Shown here piece after piece: positions 19,429 through 33,966 of a stretch of 33,975 nucleotides of DNA. Source of the DNA: Fodinibius halophilus (GTDB taxonomy: Bacteria; Bacteroidota; Rhodothermia; Balneolales; Balneolaceae); the NCBI RefSeq assembly GCF_011059105.1, contig NZ_JAALLS010000029.1:1-33975 (forward strand), read 5' to 3'. The position numbers and the translations under genes were made by a program. Each line of letters starts with the position of its first letter. Position 1 is the stretch's first letter. The notes below the pieces were generated by a model. It did no database searches and was not told the origin of the DNA. It saw only the letters and a list, made by a program, of their open reading frames with translations.

Positions 19429-19926
19429 ATGAGTAGATATCAGCTGGACGATACAGATAAGAAAATCCTTTCGATCCTCCAGAAGGATGGAAGGATCCCG
19501 AATAATAAGTTAGCTGAGAAGGTCGGGCTTACAACCACTCCTACCTTAGAGCGAGTAAAGCGATTAGAACGAGAAGGTATTATCAAAGGGTACGGAGCCC
19601 AGGTAGATCCTGAAGCAATAGAGAAAGGGTTGGTTGTTTTTTGCTCGTTGCGTCTGGCTGTTCATAAAATGCATACCCTGGATGAAGTGTGTAATGAGAT
19701 TGATAAGATGCCGGAAATCCAGGCATGCTATCATATTACCGGTGATGCTGATTTCCTGCTAAAAATTGTAGTAAAGGATATGCCGGCCTATGAACGGTTT
19801 GTACACGATAAGCTGACTCAACTGCAGGGGATTGAACGTATTTACAGTAATATTGTAATGTCTACGAAAAAAGAAAATTATCACCTTCCCATAAACGAGG
19901 AGCACCATGAAAAACAAAAAGTATAG
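19429..19926 (+). CDS. Lrp/AsnC-family regulator overlapping methionine gamma-lyase
   Basis: A 165-residue amino-acid-responsive regulator. The N-terminal helix-turn-helix reads LDDTDKKILSILQKDGRIPNNKLAEKVGLTTTPTLERVKRLE (residues 5-46), and the C-terminal half is the RAM ligand-binding domain (CYHITGDADFLLKIVVKDMPAYERFV). Its last 20 bases overlap the start of the methionine gamma-lyase gene in a different frame, so the two are translationally coupled. In Pseudomonas putida the methionine gamma-lyase gene mdeA also lies beside an Lrp-type regulator, MdeR, so this is likely the local activator, perhaps sensing methionine. A short palindrome TATTC-T-GAATA lies at 19392-19402, 27 bases before the start, and could be an Lrp site. 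Confidence 0.93.
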   Translation: MSRYQLDDTDKKILSILQKDGRIPNNKLAEKVGLTTTPTLERVKRLEREGIIKGYGAQVDPEAIEKGLVVFCSLRLAVHKMHTLDEVCNEIDKMPEIQACYHITGDADFLLKIVVKDMPAYERFVHDKLTQLQGIERIYSNIVMSTKKENYHLPINEEHHEKQKV

Positions 19927-21142
19927 CATAGAATCGGAGATGGTACATGCAGATCAACCGGAGAACGATCCGTTTGGAGCGCATGTGATGCCTATTTATC
20001 AAACTTCGACTTTTAAGTTTGATTCTGTGGAGGACGGAAGAAAGTTTTTTGCTCAAGAAGAGGGGGGAGGTTCTCATGGCTATTCGCGTTTGGGAAATCC
20101 CACGGTTGATCGCCTGGAGCAGGTTTTCGCTAAAATGGAGGGTGAGAATATCGCTGAGGATGTTGGTGCTCTTGCCTTTGGTAGTGGAATGGCTGCTGTC
20201 AGTACGGCTCTTTTGGCAATGGCTAACCAGGGAGCGGTAATAGCTCAGCCGGGTTTGTATGGATGTACAGGCCAGTTTCTAAAAGAAGAGGCGCCTGAGC
20301 TGGGGATAGACACTCATTTTCTGGATCTCAATGACCTTGAGACCTTGGATCAAACGCTACAGGAAAATCCCGATGTGAAGGTAATTTATGGGGAGACGAT
20401 GGCCAATCCTACAATGTCTATCCTTAATATTCCGGCAGTTGCTGAAGTAGCAAAGGCACACAATGTGCTATTTCTTGTAGATAATACATTTGCTACCCCT
20501 TACCACTTGCGTCCGCTGGAGATGGGCGCCGACATGGTGATCCACTCTACAACGAAATACCTGAACGGTCACGGTACCTTAATAGGCGGTGCTTTAGTAG
20601 CTAAGCAATCGGTAATTGATGAGTATAATGTGGCACTGTTTCGTAAAAACCTAGGCGGTGTTACCAGTCCCTTTGATGCATGGTTAAATTTAAATGGGCT
20701 GAAGACGTTCACGCTTCGAATGCAGCAGCATACCAAAAATGGGATGAAAGTTGCACAATTTTTGGAAGAACACGAGGCGGTAAAAAAAGTCTTTTATCCT
20801 GGTTTGGATACCCATGACCAGCATGAATTAGCAGATAAGCTCTTTGAAAAAGGCTACGGCGGTGTCATGAGTTTTGAGCTGAAGGGGGGGTATGAGGCAG
20901 GTGTAGCAATGATGGATCAAGTAGACTTTTGTACCCTCGCTGTTAGCCTTGGAACCGTAGATACGTTAATTCAGCATCCTGCTTCAATGACGCATTCTGT
21001 GATGGATGCCGAAATACGCCAACAGGCCGGTATTACTGACGGCTTGGTTCGACTGGCGGTGGGGATTGAGAATGTAGATGATATTATCGGTGACCTTGAA
21101 CAGGCATTAGAAAAAAGTAAGCCAGAACCGGCTATGTATTAA
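19907..21142 (+). CDS. megL: Methionine gamma-lyase
   Basis: PLP enzyme of the Cys/Met metabolism family (fold type I) that splits methionine into methanethiol, 2-oxobutyrate and ammonia. The PLP lysine is K217 in HSTTKYLNGHG, with the ring aspartate in LVDNTFATP. Y118 and C120 in GLYGCT match the Tyr-Gly-Cys pattern of methionine gamma-lyase, where the cysteine (C116 in P. putida) sets it apart from cystathionine gamma-synthase. SRLGNPT and HPASMTHS are intact. The ATG at 19907 lies inside the regulator gene; GAGGAG five bases ahead is a strong ribosome site. The length of 411 residues is normal. Cystathionine gamma-lyase activity cannot be fully excluded, but the cysteine and the Lrp neighbour favour methionine catabolism. 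Confidence 0.88.
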   Translation: MKNKKYSIESEMVHADQPENDPFGAHVMPIYQTSTFKFDSVEDGRKFFAQEEGGGSHGYSRLGNPTVDRLEQVFAKMEGENIAEDVGALAFGSGMAAVSTALLAMANQGAVIAQPGLYGCTGQFLKEEAPELGIDTHFLDLNDLETLDQTLQENPDVKVIYGETMANPTMSILNIPAVAEVAKAHNVLFLVDNTFATPYHLRPLEMGADMVIHSTTKYLNGHGTLIGGALVAKQSVIDEYNVALFRKNLGGVTSPFDAWLNLNGLKTFTLRMQQHTKNGMKVAQFLEEHEAVKKVFYPGLDTHDQHELADKLFEKGYGGVMSFELKGGYEAGVAMMDQVDFCTLAVSLGTVDTLIQHPASMTHSVMDAEIRQQAGITDGLVRLAVGIENVDDIIGDLEQALEKSKPEPAMY

Positions 21143-21193: not shown

Positions 21194-21243
21194 ATATTAG
21201 GGCGACTCTAACAAAATAATCTGAATTGGAGATACCCCTTACT

Positions 21244-24200
21244 ATGAGTGGAAGTCGGAAGTCGCCTTGGAGAGTTTGGGTTGATACAGGTGGTACTTTT
21301 ACGGATTGTATTGCTATTAGCCCACAAGGGGAAAGAAAAAAGGCAAAGGTCCTCAGTAGTAGTGCTCTGCGTGGAGAAATTATATCCAGAGTGGATGATC
21401 TCAACTTTAAAGTAGATCAATCATGGGAGGCACCGACTGATTTTATTGAGGGGTTTGGATTTGAGCTGTTGGATGGGTTCCACCAGAATGCCAAGATAGT
21501 AGCTTTTGACAGCGATCAGTCGGTCATTACATTAGATAAACCAGTTGAAGTAAACGAAGGTGTAGCTTTTGAAGCCCTATCGGATGAAGAAGCACCGGTA
21601 TTGGCGGCAAGACTTGTTACGCAAACACCCCGTCAAGACAGCCTGCCGGCAATAGATCTGCGATTGGCCACCACCAAAGCAACCAATGCTCTGCTCGAAA
21701 AAAAGGGGGCACCCACAGCTCTTTTTGTAACAAAGGGATATGGAGATTTATTAAAGATCGGAACTCAGCAGCGTCCCGATCTTTTTGCACTTGAAATTGA
21801 GAAAAAATCCTCCCTTTATGATGAAGTAGTAGAAGTAGATGAACGGCTGAATGCAGTAGGGGAGATCCTGAAGCCAATAGATATTGGTTCATTGAAATCT
21901 GATGTTAAGCACCTTTTGGATCAAGGTATCACTTCTGCAGCCGTATCATTAATGCATAGCTATAAAAACCCTAAACATGAGCAGCAGTTTAAGAAATGGT
22001 TGTTAGATCAGGGTTTTGAGCACGTTTCTGTTTCTGCTAATCTAAGTCCTTTTATAGGAATTCTTCCTCGCACAGAGACGGCACTGGTCAATGCATACCT
22101 GGCTCCCATCATCCAGCAGTATCTTGATGATGTGCAGTCCGTGATCAAAGATGAACAGATGTTTATCATGACGAGTGCCGGCGGGTTAACGCTGGAGGAG
22201 CAGTTTGCCCCTAAGGATAGCTTATTAAGTGGTCCGGCCGGTGGGGTTGTAGGGGCAGCTACGGCCGGTAAAAAAGCTGGGGTAGATCATGTTATTTCAT
22301 TTGATATGGGAGGTACAAGCACGGATGTAGCCCGTTATGACGCCGGTTATGAATATGTTTTTGAACATGCTATCGGTGATGCACATCTTGTTGCCCCGGC
22401 TCTAAATATTGAGACAGTAGCCGCCGGTGGTGGTTCAATATGTTATTTCGATGGCCATAAACTTTGTGTAGGTCCTGAAAGTGCGGGAGCGTGGCCGGGA
22501 CCTGCTTGTTATGGGGCCGGTGGTCCACTTACTGTGACAGATGTAAACTTACTGTTGGGACGTCTTGATCCCCAAAACTTTCATATCCCGGTAGATCTGG
22601 AAGCTGCGAATACACAGCTCAATACTCTCCTCCAAGAGGTGAAAGATAGTGATGCTAAATCGCTTTCCCGCCAAGAGATGCTTTCAGGATTTTTGCAGAT
22701 TGCTAATGAACGTATGGCTGATGCTATTCGAAAGGTATCTGTTCAAAAAGGATACGACACCCGAAATTATGGACTGGTTGCTTTTGGCGGGGCCGGGGGA
22801 CAACATGCATGTGCCATTGCTGATCGGTTAAATATGGAAACCGTTATTATCCCTGAAGAGGCGGGGCTGTTGAGCGCAGAGGGGTTGGGCCACGCTGAAG
22901 TTGAAGAGTTCGCTGAGCGGCAAATTCTAAGACCGTTGCATGATATTGAAGCTGACTTGGAAGTTTATTGGAAAGAGTTAGCCGATCAGGCAAAAGAAAA
23001 ATTGACGAAAGCGGGCATTTCAGCCGGCAATATTAGTATTCGGCGCAATATTTTATCCATGCGATTATCGGGACAGGAAACCTCTCTTGAGGTTGAATAT
23101 ACAAAGAATGGGGATCCGGAGAGTGCCTTCAAGGATCTGTATCGCGAACAGTACGGGCACTGGGTGTCTGGCCGTGAAATTGAAGTGGTAAGCCTGCGCG
23201 TTATTGCCTCAGCCGATGCCATTGAAGGGCAAGAAGATCAGCCTAAAACCAAAAGGTATTACCCTGATGCAGCCTATACAAAAGAGATTTGGTTTGAAGG
23301 AGAGAGCCGGGAGACTCCGGTTTTTTTAAGGGAAAAACTGAAGGCTGGGGCAGAAATAAATGGTCCGGCACTTATTTTAGATCCCCATAGTACCATTGCC
23401 ATTGAACCCAATTGGGAGGTTGCAGTAACCGCAGATGGGGCACTGAAGCTCAGTAGAAGTAGTGAGGAAGAAAAAGAAGTTGAGAGTGATCTGTCAGAAG
23501 TGGTAAGCCTGGAACTTTTTACGAATCGCTTTAGCTCTATTGCAGTAGAGATGGGTGAGATGCTGCAGCGGACCGCATTGTCCGTGAATGTGAAAGATCG
23601 CCTGGACTTTTCATGTGCTTTGCTCAACGAAAAGGGGGAGTTGGTCGTCAATGCTCCCCATATTCCCGTACATTTGGGGGCCTTAGGCCTGTGTGTGCGC
23701 AGGGTTAAGGAAGAGCTGGAAATTGTCCCCGGTGATGTGTTAGTAACAAATCATCCTGCATTCGGAGGATCACATCTGCCCGATGTAACAGTTATCACGC
23801 CTTGTTTTGTAAAAGGTAATCTCGTTGGATTTGCGGCAAGCAGGGCTCACCATGCCGAAATTGGTGGAGCCTCCCCGGGATCAATGCCGCCTACCGCTAC
23901 AAATCTGCAGCAGGAGGGTGTTGTTATTCCACCCATGCACTTGGTTAAAAAAGGAGAAGGACAGTGGCAGAAGATTAAAGAGCAACTGCTTTCAGATCCC
24001 TTTCCCACACGAAGTGTCAGTGAAAATATTGCGGACTTGCAGGCAGCAGTCGCGGCCAACCAACGAGGTATTGATAGCTTAGAAAAGTTATGTGAGAAGC
24101 ACAGTATTGAAAAGGTGAGATACTATATGGATGCGTTGACGGCTCATGCCGAATCGAAAATGCGTTCTACGATTAAGGAAATGGACTCCGGGCAGTTTGT

Positions 24201-25032
24201 GAGTGAGGAGTTCTTGGACGATGGTACCCCTATAAAGGTGAAGGTGGAGGTTGATGATGATGAAATTGAGCTGGATTTCACAGGCACCGGGGCTGTTCAT
24301 CCGGGGAATCTGAATGCTACCCCCGCTATTGTAAGTAGTGTGGTTATGTACGTGCTTCGGTTGCTTATTGATGAATCGATACCGTTGAATGAGGGGATTT
24401 TAAAAGCGGTGAACATGACACTGCCGAAATGCCTGTTGAATCCTGCTTTTGATGCGGATCCAAAAAAATGTCCGGCAGTGGTAGGAGGAAATATCGAAGT
24501 GAGTCAGCGTTTGGTTGATACTTTGCTAAAACCATTTGAAAGAATAGCCTGCAGCCAGGGCACGATGAATAATGTACTTTTTGGCAATGAAGATTTCGGA
24601 TACTATGAGACGGTGGGAGGCGGTACAGGCGCGGGACCCGGCTTTTCGGGAACGGATGCGGTGCACCACCATATGACGAATACCCGGGGAACGGATCCCG
24701 AAATTTTTGAATACCGCTATCCCGTTCGGTTGGACGAATATTCAGTACGTAAAAACTCTGGTGGTGATGGTAAATGGAAGGGCGGAAACGGTATCTACCG
24801 AAAGGTGACTTTTTTAGAAAACGTCGAACTTACCGTACTGACACAGCATCGACGGGAAGGTCCATACGGGGTTGCCGGAGGAGAAGCCGGCTCTGTTGGT
24901 GAGCAATGGGTGTACTTTAAGGATGGGAATAAGAGAAAACTGGACTCTATAGACGGTTGTTCCCTGGAGAAAGGGGATAGCTTTATTCTTAAAACTCCGG
25001 GTGGCGGAGGTTTTGGGAATGCCAAGAGCTAG
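21244..25032 (+). CDS. Fused HyuA-HyuB protein, probable ATP-dependent 5-oxoprolinase
   Basis: A 1262-residue protein joining the HyuA (ATPase) and HyuB (hydrolase) halves of the hydantoinase/oxoprolinase family, as in eukaryotic-type 5-oxoprolinase, which opens 5-oxoproline to glutamate with ATP. In the HyuA half, VDTGGTFTD (about 13-21) and DMGGTSTDVARYD are the ATP-binding motifs; LATTKATNALLEKKG and LKIGTQQRPDLFAL fit 5-oxoprolinase (human form has IGTQARxDLF). The HyuB half begins near residue 755 with VEMGEMLQRTALSVNVKDRLDFSCAL and has PHIPVHLGALG and NHPAFGGSHLPDV. About 115 residues lie between the first two HyuA motifs, some 50 more than I expect. The ATG at 21244 is preferred to a TTG at 21226. 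The transporter gene follows after 29 bases. Another cyclic amide, such as a hydantoin, is possible. Confidence 0.85.
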   Translation: MSGSRKSPWRVWVDTGGTFTDCIAISPQGERKKAKVLSSSALRGEIISRVDDLNFKVDQSWEAPTDFIEGFGFELLDGFHQNAKIVAFDSDQSVITLDKPVEVNEGVAFEALSDEEAPVLAARLVTQTPRQDSLPAIDLRLATTKATNALLEKKGAPTALFVTKGYGDLLKIGTQQRPDLFALEIEKKSSLYDEVVEVDERLNAVGEILKPIDIGSLKSDVKHLLDQGITSAAVSLMHSYKNPKHEQQFKKWLLDQGFEHVSVSANLSPFIGILPRTETALVNAYLAPIIQQYLDDVQSVIKDEQMFIMTSAGGLTLEEQFAPKDSLLSGPAGGVVGAATAGKKAGVDHVISFDMGGTSTDVARYDAGYEYVFEHAIGDAHLVAPALNIETVAAGGGSICYFDGHKLCVGPESAGAWPGPACYGAGGPLTVTDVNLLLGRLDPQNFHIPVDLEAANTQLNTLLQEVKDSDAKSLSRQEMLSGFLQIANERMADAIRKVSVQKGYDTRNYGLVAFGGAGGQHACAIADRLNMETVIIPEEAGLLSAEGLGHAEVEEFAERQILRPLHDIEADLEVYWKELADQAKEKLTKAGISAGNISIRRNILSMRLSGQETSLEVEYTKNGDPESAFKDLYREQYGHWVSGREIEVVSLRVIASADAIEGQEDQPKTKRYYPDAAYTKEIWFEGESRETPVFLREKLKAGAEINGPALILDPHSTIAIEPNWEVAVTADGALKLSRSSEEEKEVESDLSEVVSLELFTNRFSSIAVEMGEMLQRTALSVNVKDRLDFSCALLNEKGELVVNAPHIPVHLGALGLCVRRVKEELEIVPGDVLVTNHPAFGGSHLPDVTVITPCFVKGNLVGFAASRAHHAEIGGASPGSMPPTATNLQQEGVVIPPMHLVKKGEGQWQKIKEQLLSDPFPTRSVSENIADLQAAVAANQRGIDSLEKLCEKHSIEKVRYYMDALTAHAESKMRSTIKEMDSGQFVSEEFLDDGTPIKVKVEVDDDEIELDFTGTGAVHPGNLNATPAIVSSVVMYVLRLLIDESIPLNEGILKAVNMTLPKCLLNPAFDADPKKCPAVVGGNIEVSQRLVDTLLKPFERIACSQGTMNNVLFGNEDFGYYETVGGGTGAGPGFSGTDAVHHHMTNTRGTDPEIFEYRYPVRLDEYSVRKNSGGDGKWKGGNGIYRKVTFLENVELTVLTQHRREGPYGVAGGEAGSVGEQWVYFKDGNKRKLDSIDGCSLEKGDSFILKTPGGGGFGNAKS

Positions 25033-25061
25033 TTTAATTACAAATATTATTTAACGAGATT

Positions 25062-26384
25062 ATGAAAAAGCGCTTTTTAAATATTTTATTTTGGGCTGTT
25101 ATCTCTGCGGCGTTCATCGGTCCGGGAACAATAACTACGGCTGCTGCTGCCGGTGCAGAGTTTGGATATTCTCTTATCTGGGCATTAGTGTTTTCTACAG
25201 TGGCCTGTATTGTGTTGCAAGAGGCCAGTGCCCGCCTGACAATGTCCTCGGGCATTAATCTGGGTGAAGCCCTAAAAAAATATTTGAATGTAAGTCCCGT
25301 AATGAGTGGCTTATTGGGGATGATTGTAGGAGCCGTAATTCTGGGGTGTGCCGCTTATGAAGCCGGAAATATATTGGGCGCCGTGGCGGGTATCACACTC
25401 ATCTATAAAATACCTGCTTATTGGATTGTTTTAGCGATGGGAGGCATAGTGCTACCCCTGTTTTGGTATGGTACGGTAGAATCGGTCGCAAAAGTAATGG
25501 GCGTATTGGTTGCCTTTATGGGGATCTGTTTTCTCATCACGGCCGTTCTTATGAAACCTGATTTAGGAGCTGTGGCCCAAAGCTTGGTAATCCCTGAAAT
25601 ACCAGATGGGTCGAGTATGCTGATCCTGGCACTCATCGGTACCACTGTAGTGCCCTATAACTTATTTCTGGGATCGGGAATCGCTTCGGGACAAGATCTT
25701 AAAGAGATGCGCTGGAGCCTGAGTATCGCTATTGGGCTCGGGGGATTGATTTCTATCGGTGTTCTTATCGTGGGTACAGCCATTACCGGGTCATTTACAT
25801 TTGATGGCTTAGCTTCTGCTTTAACCCAGCAGCTGGGAGGCTGGGCTTCGCTGTTACTGGGATTAGGACTGTTCGCTGCGGGGCTGAGTTCATCAATAAC
25901 GGCTCCACTTGCTGCTGCTGTGACAGCACAAAGTGTGGCTGATGATGAGGATAAAGCAAAAGGAGGGAAGTGGGCAGAACCCGGCCGTAACTTTCGAGCA
26001 GTTTGGATGGGAGTACTATTGATTGGACTGGCCTTTGGGGCATCCCAGGTACAGCCCGTGCCTGCTATTATTCTTGCCCAGGCTTTAAATGGTATTATTC
26101 TACCTATGGTGGCTGTAGCATTACTTATATTGGTTAATAATTTGGAGCTGATGACTCAAAAGGCAGCGAATACGGTGGGCGTAAATATCCTGATGAGTAT
26201 CGTTGTGTTTATTACGATCATCATTGGCGTGCGAAATGTGGCGCGAGCATTATCGACATCGCTACCGGTAGAATTGGTCAACGAAACCTATATACTGATT
26301 ACCTCGGTAGTAATCTCTGTACTTATCAGCTGGCCGGTGTATCGGATGATCAAGAAATTGCGAGGCGAGAATCTAAAAGAATAA
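25062..26384 (+). CDS. Nramp-fold membrane transporter lacking the canonical metal ligands
   Basis: A 440-residue inner-membrane protein with about eleven hydrophobic helices in the Nramp/SLC11 arrangement. The helix-1 motif, normally DPGN with metal-binding D and N, reads GPGT (20-23). The helix-6 motif, normally MPHN with metal-binding M, reads VPYN (197-200). All three classical metal contacts are thus replaced, although the surrounding pattern (AFIGPGT, VVPYNLFLGSG, LEASARLT-like QEASARLT) keeps the family signature. The start is 29 bases after the 5-oxoprolinase gene, on the same strand. Bacillus subtilis YcsG, another Nramp relative, sits in the operon of a different 5-oxoprolinase (PxpABC), so uptake of 5-oxoproline or a related organic acid is a reasonable inference. 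Transport of a metal is not supported by the residues. Confidence 0.85.
   Translation: MKKRFLNILFWAVISAAFIGPGTITTAAAAGAEFGYSLIWALVFSTVACIVLQEASARLTMSSGINLGEALKKYLNVSPVMSGLLGMIVGAVILGCAAYEAGNILGAVAGITLIYKIPAYWIVLAMGGIVLPLFWYGTVESVAKVMGVLVAFMGICFLITAVLMKPDLGAVAQSLVIPEIPDGSSMLILALIGTTVVPYNLFLGSGIASGQDLKEMRWSLSIAIGLGGLISIGVLIVGTAITGSFTFDGLASALTQQLGGWASLLLGLGLFAAGLSSSITAPLAAAVTAQSVADDEDKAKGGKWAEPGRNFRAVWMGVLLIGLAFGASQVQPVPAIILAQALNGIILPMVAVALLILVNNLELMTQKAANTVGVNILMSIVVFITIIIGVRNVARALSTSLPVELVNETYILITSVVISVLISWPVYRMIKKLRGENLKE

Positions 26385-33893: not shown

Positions 33894-33966
<73 letters not shown>

Follow-up and report, generated by a model that had tools for sequence, protein, structure and literature searches.

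The window analysed here is a 33,975-nt stretch of Fodinibius halophilus DNA (contig NZ_JAALLS010000029.1, assembly GCF_011059105.1), whose forward strand carries a gene for a fused HyuA-HyuB enzyme of the OplAH type, a predicted 5-oxoprolinase, followed after 29 nt (25033-25061) by a gene for a carrier of the Nramp fold. An earlier note on this DNA had reported such a pair at this spacing, and the open reading frames (ORFs), Pfam domains and coordinates bear the arrangement out; the enzyme ORF ends at 25032 and begins either at the ATG adopted in that note (21244) or possibly at a TTG at 21226. Four domains lie on the single 1268-residue chain of the enzyme (Pfam: Hydant_A_N PF05378, Hydantoinase_A PF01968, Hydant_A_C PF19278 and Hydantoinase_B PF02538), so that the HyuA and HyuB domains by which the OplAH/hydantoinase superfamily is recognised are both present, here in fused form.

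The carrier matches the Nramp profile PF01566 over most of its length (model positions 1-353 of 357; 224.8 bits against a cut-off of 29.8), and its AlphaFold2 model (predicted local distance difference test score 81.7, predicted template modelling score 0.82) shows the LeuT fold with transmembrane helices 1 and 6 (TM1 and TM6) broken at the sequence motifs (Table 1). Compared with 1000 PDB chains, the model was closest to DraNramp (6c3i; Z 46.1, 26% identity), with EleNRMT (Z 43.6) and the integrative model of Bacillus subtilis YcsG (9a52; Z 39.0) also among the fold matches and the alanine carrier AgcS as the best outside the family (Z 30.4). The NCBIfam model for MntH is missed by far (111.8 against a cut-off of 430). 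Alignment with 16 canonical Nramps reveals what has changed: TM1 has exchanged Asp for G20 and Asn for T23, TM6 has exchanged Met for V197, and further replacements affect TM6 (Ala by T194, His by Y199) and TM3 (Glu by N103). The canonical SLC11/MntH motif (DPGN on TM1, A-x-x-MPH on TM6) is therefore absent from the carrier, while its D, N, M and H are present in 16/16 canonical rows. These data agree with the earlier reading that DPGN had become GPGT and MPHN had become VPYN with loss of the classical ligands D, N and M, and they add that the changes are fixed throughout the branch of the carrier, here called G1: G20 is invariant in the 125 G1 rows that span TM1 (rows L037 and L069, two of the 40 read from other genomes, have no TM1), and N103, V197 and Y199 in all 128. 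It should be noted that 80 of these 128 rows are named, mostly flavobacterial loci closely similar to each other, and that the sequences in which the motif was inspected come, besides the window, from 40 of the other 76 G1-positive genomes.

The motif of the Nramp-related magnesium transporters (NRMTs), defined as DxxG on TM1 and TxxA/T on TM6 (PMC8806188), is likewise lacking, with no TM1 Asp and a Val at the A/T position. All residues of the "orphan" or "G-motif" pattern, on the other hand, were found in the carrier (G and T on TM1; Y and N on TM3; T, V and Y on TM6), and they correspond to the outgroup-mimicking exchanges in the literature (TM1 D to G and N to T; TM3 Y and N; TM6 A to T, M to V and H to Y; PMC10606218, see also PMC9606685). 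Judged by these residues, the window branch is the SLC11 outgroup already published as "orphan" or "G-motif".

Co-occurrence of the carrier with 5-oxoprolinases was examined in 394 genomes of the window's phylum (170 genera), calling G1 carriers at E <= 1e-30 and, in all 394, HyuB (PF02538) and PxpA (PF03746) at E <= 1e-20, the latter as part of the unrelated 5-oxoprolinase PxpABC, reportedly first described in Niehaus 2017. Carriers were found in 77 genomes from 37 genera, HyuB in 59 genomes and PxpA in 72. Every carrier genome encodes one of the two enzymes and never both (48 PxpA without HyuB, 29 HyuB without PxpA, 0 both, 0 neither), while among the 317 genomes without a carrier 265 have neither enzyme, 28 HyuB, 22 PxpA and 2 both (52 with either). 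The Fisher value for this association, 2e-47, ignores kinship and is used descriptively. Counted by genus, 24 of the 37 carrier genera have PxpA, 12 have HyuB and 1 is mixed, a tally from which a single genome of g2 and another of g8 are missing (75 of 77 counted), with no effect on the genus classes. Across all 394 genomes PxpA and HyuB occur together in 2, against 10.8 expected, a pattern like that of mutually replacing enzymes.

Gene order tells the same story. The carrier lies within 10 kb of an enzyme gene in 56/77 genomes (37 pxpA, 19 hyuB), on the same strand in 54 of these 56. Among 40 loci from other carrier genomes, HyuA/HyuB genes were read in 17, pxp genes in 15 and neither within the flank in 8, with Pfam confirming PxpA, PxpB and PxpC in locus L056; the 80 named, nearly all flavobacterial loci have pxp genes in the flank in 77 cases and lack them in 3. 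As a control we took the first 80 genomes of the canonical-Nramp match list that have no G1 carrier. PxpA was present in 13 and either enzyme in 14, and in 0/14 did the canonical Nramp lie within 10 kb of the enzyme (top-listed canonical gene per genome, among the matches listed); several of these genomes, most of the 13 with PxpA, carry an Nramp relative of a second branch, G2, near their pxp genes. Chance adjacency of carrier and enzyme was rejected on the basis of the co-occurrence table together with this control, and the linkage between carrier and 5-oxoprolinase is strong. Random neighbours of close homologues, named beforehand as the outcome that would speak against the earlier note, were not seen (56/77 within 10 kb; 77/77 genomes with an enzyme). 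Linkage to two non-homologous enzymes even exceeds what had been claimed, given that both occur within one branch and one phylum and exclude each other.

The relation of G1 to G2 was examined in an IQ-TREE phylogeny of 73 rows, unrooted by the data, and in an earlier quick tree of 90 rows. For the final tree the set was reduced by dropping several near-duplicates within G1 and a number of sequences from G2, the canonical Nramps and the NRMTs, and L002 and L161 were left out for their long branches; L037 and L069 are in neither tree. Support in the 73-row tree was 100/100 for G2, 100/100 for canonical Nramps, 100/99 for NRMTs and 98/95 for canonical Nramps grouped with NRMTs. The window carrier stands among G1 and does not cluster with the fully separated G2 rows; G1 as one group received 26/0 in this tree, versus 93 in the quick tree (Shimodaira-Hasegawa-like approximate likelihood-ratio test only). 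Mapped onto G1 in the 73-row tree, the linked-enzyme label must have switched 4 times or more and the genome label 5 times, and the oplAH-linked row L176 is nested in a starred clade of pxp-linked rows.

G2 itself was met beside pxpABC in genomes without G1. From 24 PxpA genomes lacking a G1 carrier 20 loci were fetched: 13 encode the other Nramp relative, with GPGF on TM1, GN on TM3 and GGTVGGY on TM6 (PF01566 confirmed for two), 2 have a carrier of the major facilitator superfamily (MFS) between pxpC and pxpA (L192:6435-7679 and L196:6085-7326), and in 5 no carrier was recognised. G2-type matches came from 168 plasmid records, and pxp genes were nearby in 9/9 loci read (Deinococcus, Klebsiella, Lactiplantibacillus, Rhizobium, two Paracoccus, Shinella, Acinetobacter and Moraxella), with two transposase genes intervening in Deinococcus. 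All G2 loci read thus adjoin pxp genes, 13 of them having been found by looking beside pxpA. Klebsiella alone accounts for 93 plasmid records matching the G2 Nramp, and in the K. grimontii record that was read a pxp cluster adjoins. A G2 query found no match among the chains of the sequence library.

One G2-type locus of Acinetobacter baumannii (L230, NZ_CP064203.1) encodes an Nramp carrier without a metal motif, PxpA, a 268-residue protein, a fused PxpBC and a 573-residue protein, PxpA and PxpBC being assigned by hidden Markov models. In the mumTLUHC operon published for this species as a "urea" operon, likewise of five genes, the carrier gene leads and the fourth gene encodes an "allophanate hydrolase" (PMC5050338). 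From layout and species we infer that L230 is the mum locus, and since the layouts agree in the first and fourth genes, MumH looks like PxpBC. On the same grounds of operon layout, G2 seems to hold YcsG, PxpT of Corynebacterium glutamicum and MumT, and because operons laid out like theirs carry G2, YcsG is probably only a remote relative of the window carrier. The earlier note had adduced YcsG as a parallel; an Nramp relative encoded with PxpABC it is, but the YcsG-like pxp operons carry the distant G2 rather than the window branch.

The carrier probably imports 5-oxoproline (pyroglutamate) and not metal, because its metal ligands are lost and because, in the 394 genomes, carriers of its kind were always accompanied by one of two unrelated 5-oxoprolinases. 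On this sequence evidence we regard the gene pair as a likely uptake-and-use module for 5-oxoproline or a close carboxylated lactam. The LeuT-fold carrier would bind the small carboxylated lactam between its broken TM1 and TM6 and move it inward, where OplAH would open the 5-oxoproline ring with ATP to give glutamate. The pocket of the window carrier is neutralised (Asp to Gly, Glu to Asn), and both 5-oxoprolinase-linked branches lack acidic TM1/TM3 residues and have Gly-Pro-Gly at the TM1 turn, a turn for which one exchange is enough, since canonical Nramps read Asp-Pro-Gly. By analogy, this turn may hold the carboxylate through backbone amides, as the TM1 Gly-x-Gly turn of SLC7 carriers does (PMC10998858, PMC13194723), the analogy being inexact because Pro removes one amide; the TM6 Tyr and the Asn residues of TM3 and TM10 may surround the ring. 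Enzyme often occurs without carrier in the 394 genomes and carrier without enzyme never does, an asymmetry that fits an importer because 5-oxoproline also arises inside cells (PMC13274462). Its formation inside cells, and the fact that sequence does not reveal the direction of transport, could be cited for export of 5-oxoproline or a related overflow product; the degrading enzyme adjoins the carrier, however, and growth on 5-oxoproline supplied from outside depends on PxpT, a member of the related branch by operon layout (PMC13274462), so we hold export to be very improbable. The two pxp operons with an MFS carrier between pxpC and pxpA also favour the importer.

Several observations weigh against 5-oxoproline uptake as the function. 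We know of no transport measurement for any G1 protein. The counted genomes are related to one another, 21/77 carriers are not near an enzyme gene, the G1 carrier is absent from 30 HyuB genomes and 24 PxpA genomes, and 3/5 HyuB-bearing genomes of the window's own genus lack it. Outside the phylum sample, 3/6 G1 plasmid loci (Qipengyuania, Pseudoalteromonas and the haloarchaeal Natrononativus) have no such enzyme in the stretch read. On the same side stand the manganese data from the related branch: cell manganese rose on overexpression of YcsG (MntG), the ycsG promoter was bound by MntR, and attempts to combine mntH, mntA and ycsG mutations in one strain failed (PMC10448178), while deletion of mumT lowered cell manganese, with complementation, by inductively coupled plasma mass spectrometry (PMC5050338; manganese import is also claimed in PMC11796373).

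These phenotypes bear on the alternative that the carrier still imports a divalent metal such as Mn2+, as a cofactor for the neighbouring enzyme or in co-regulation with nitrogen metabolism. The carrier belongs to PF01566 and scores 77.5 bits where the broad NCBIfam model Nramp_1 ("Nramp family divalent metal transporter") requires 50, and would for that reason be annotated automatically as a metal transporter, a match that also counts against the 5-oxoproline reading. In addition, Mn2+ transport in vitro survived both mutation of the ligand Met in EcoDMT and a triple mutation that introduced NRMT-like ligands (PMC8806188), and both PF01566 proteins of the window genome lack the canonical motif. 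Against metal transport, substitutions that are invariant across the branch have removed all three ligands together with the TM6 His and the TM3 Glu; the canonical Nramps of the control are not linked to these enzymes; an MFS carrier can occupy the carrier slot; and Rfam families in the window comprise tRNA only. Moreover, 5/7 other sampled genomes of the genus have one weak PF01566 match (E 1e-14 to 1e-16, by score alone) while lacking a G1 carrier, which is thus dispensable in the genus. We therefore consider metal import by the window carrier improbable.

A different objection concerns the enzyme, whose superfamily also includes hydantoinases, caprolactamase and ketone carboxylases, so that its 5-oxoprolinase activity is a prediction from sequence. 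The top PDB relative is 7hk5, named N-methylhydantoinase (444.5 bits, residues 139-1265), followed by a 6yra chain named 5-oxoprolinase, and the closest NCBIfam models are caprolactamase and acetophenone carboxylase, both scoring far below their cut-offs. Hydantoins and caprolactam are further substrates of HyuA/HyuB enzymes, so the enzyme family leaves the substrate unfixed, a further point on the contrary side. The carrier might thus import a related cyclic amide or carboxylated ring (a hydantoin, an N-carbamoyl compound or another lactam) for a hydantoinase-like amidase, and the protein of the Asp/Glu-racemase family (Pfam Amdase) that ends a Haladaptatus operon could be counted in its favour. 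G1, however, is linked now to HyuAB/OplAH, now to PxpABC, an enzyme known to act on 5-oxoproline (PMC13274462), and the mutual exclusion of HyuB and PxpA, complete among the carrier genomes, argues the same way; we judge this alternative unlikely and retain 5-oxoproline as the probable substrate.

The contig scan of genomes returned G1 from Bacteroidota only, nearly all flavobacterial, and other phyla were sampled through plasmid records, where G1-type proteins are annotated "Nramp family divalent metal transporter". Haloarchaeal plasmids have the order nramp-hyuA-hyuB in 3/4 loci (Haloferax, Haladaptatus and Haloarcula), and the last gene of the Haladaptatus operon is the Amdase/Asp-Glu racemase family member (L157:12886-13620). 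A plasmid of Neorhizobium petrolearium encodes an Nramp relative with GPGN on TM1 (L161:8022-9206) next to genes for a dihydrodipicolinate-synthase family protein and a LacI regulator, which hints at further organic-acid carriers in the Nramp family. Among viral contigs, 38 stretches matched the search pattern and none encodes a relative of the carrier.

Around the gene pair (Table 1), the forward strand reads Lrp-type regulator, pyridoxal-phosphate (PLP) enzyme, HyuA-HyuB and Nramp carrier, followed by a convergent TPM-TPM-LemA block. The regulator and the PLP enzyme were considered as parts of the system and rejected, neither adjoining oplAH in the sister locus L033; for this reason the PLP enzyme is probably outside the system. 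A trypsin-like gene recurs in 7/40 fetched loci: in L036-L041 it separates oplAH from nramp but runs on the opposite strand, and in L034 (10366-11412) it lies downstream of nramp on the same strand. It was rejected as a companion protein because it is not general. A metal riboswitch was rejected as an element as well, because the window, scanned against Rfam at gathering scores, matched nothing but a tRNA. Promoter-like sites (13 versus 16.6 in shuffles) and terminator-like sites (13 versus 8.4, standard deviation 3.0) were not used as evidence. Two genomes of the genus (G360 and G227) show an apparent oplAH neighbourhood, judged from gene sizes, without the carrier. The second PF01566 protein of the window genome (L002, G000:C12:38957-39985) reads AIGVSH on TM1 and likewise lacks the canonical metal motif.

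Table 1. Coordinates of the gene pair, its motif segments and other features in the window
Feature	Position	Strand	Evidence
Fused HyuA-HyuB (OplAH-type) 5-oxoprolinase/hydantoinase, predicted ATP-dependent	21244..25032	+	ORF, Pfam
Nramp-related carrier, "G-motif"/"orphan" outgroup, branch G1, 440 residues	25062..26384	+	ORF, PF01566
TM1 unwound segment GPGT (canonical DPGN)	25119..25130	+	Alignment; model helix break at residues 19-20
TM3 segment YEAGN, Asn103 replacing canonical Glu	25356..25370	+	Alignment
TM6 unwound segment TTVVPY (canonical ATVMPH)	25641..25658	+	Alignment; model helix break at residues 196-197
PLP Cys/Met-metabolism enzyme, methionine gamma-lyase-like, upstream neighbour	19907..21142	+	Profile matches
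Lrp/AsnC-type regulator, upstream neighbour	19429..19926	+	Profile matches
tRNA gene, end of window	33894-33966		Rfam scan

The earlier functional reading, that this carrier takes up 5-oxoproline or a similar organic acid, is probably right for G1: the metal site is indeed lost, and both the link to 5-oxoprolinases and the two-enzyme argument hold, while its claim of a substrate class not known for the family gives way, PxpT having been proposed for 5-oxoproline in 2026. PxpT is 50% identical to YcsG and is needed for growth on 5-oxoproline, which plasmid-borne pxpT restores, though the authors of that work leave room for metal transport (PMC13274462). What is new is the tie of the window branch to both enzymes, the finding that these exclude each other among the carrier genomes, and the possibility that metal transporters originated from carriers of this kind; in the open-licence literature, as far as its text was available, no description of an OplAH-linked Nramp was found.

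These findings offer a testable substrate for a large Nramp outgroup annotated as divalent metal transporters, and they bear on the published conflict over whether the related carriers YcsG and MumT import manganese or 5-oxoproline. G1 and G2 share the TM1 Gly-Pro-Gly, the TM3 Asn and the TM6 Tyr, and both are tied to 5-oxoprolinases. Nramp-related proteins are reported to be paraphyletic (PMC12873925), which suggests a root on the G2 side. In that case 5-oxoproline transport would be older, and the metal site would have been made by Asp and Glu entering a carboxylate pocket; were such transport ancestral, the manganese phenotypes of YcsG and MumT would be indirect. That the SLC11/Nramp metal importers arose from organic-acid carriers is a tentative proposal, with perhaps a lesser chance of being true than false, and it provides a concrete model of a metal site evolving from (or into) a carboxylate site through few substitutions.

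Compared with known systems, the window carrier has its fold in common with canonical Nramp/MntH proteins (DraNramp, E. coli MntH) and differs from them in the metal ligands, the TM6 His and the TM3 Glu. With the NRMTs, Mg2+ carriers such as EleNRMT, it shares the fold and the loss of the Met ligand, whereas 7 NRMT-like rows retain a TM1 Asp and an acidic TM3 residue, neither of which it has. From Cellier's SLC11 "orphan" outgroup and the "G-motif" groups no structural difference was seen, the exchanges being the same; the BfraNramp preprint places MntG (YcsG) in "G-motif 3" and calls the Nramp-related groups beyond it and the NRMT-like ones entirely uncharacterised (PMC12873925). The passages seen of these orphan and G-motif papers assign no substrate. 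YcsG/MntG of B. subtilis, PxpT of C. glutamicum and MumT of A. baumannii are, like many G1 members, Nramp relatives encoded with PxpABC, and the carriers of operons laid out like theirs have the TM1 GPG turn, TM3 Asn and TM6 Tyr in common with the window branch. A long, fully supported branch nevertheless separates G2, with its GPGF and GGTVGGY motifs, from the window branch, which in addition pairs with OplAH/HyuAB.

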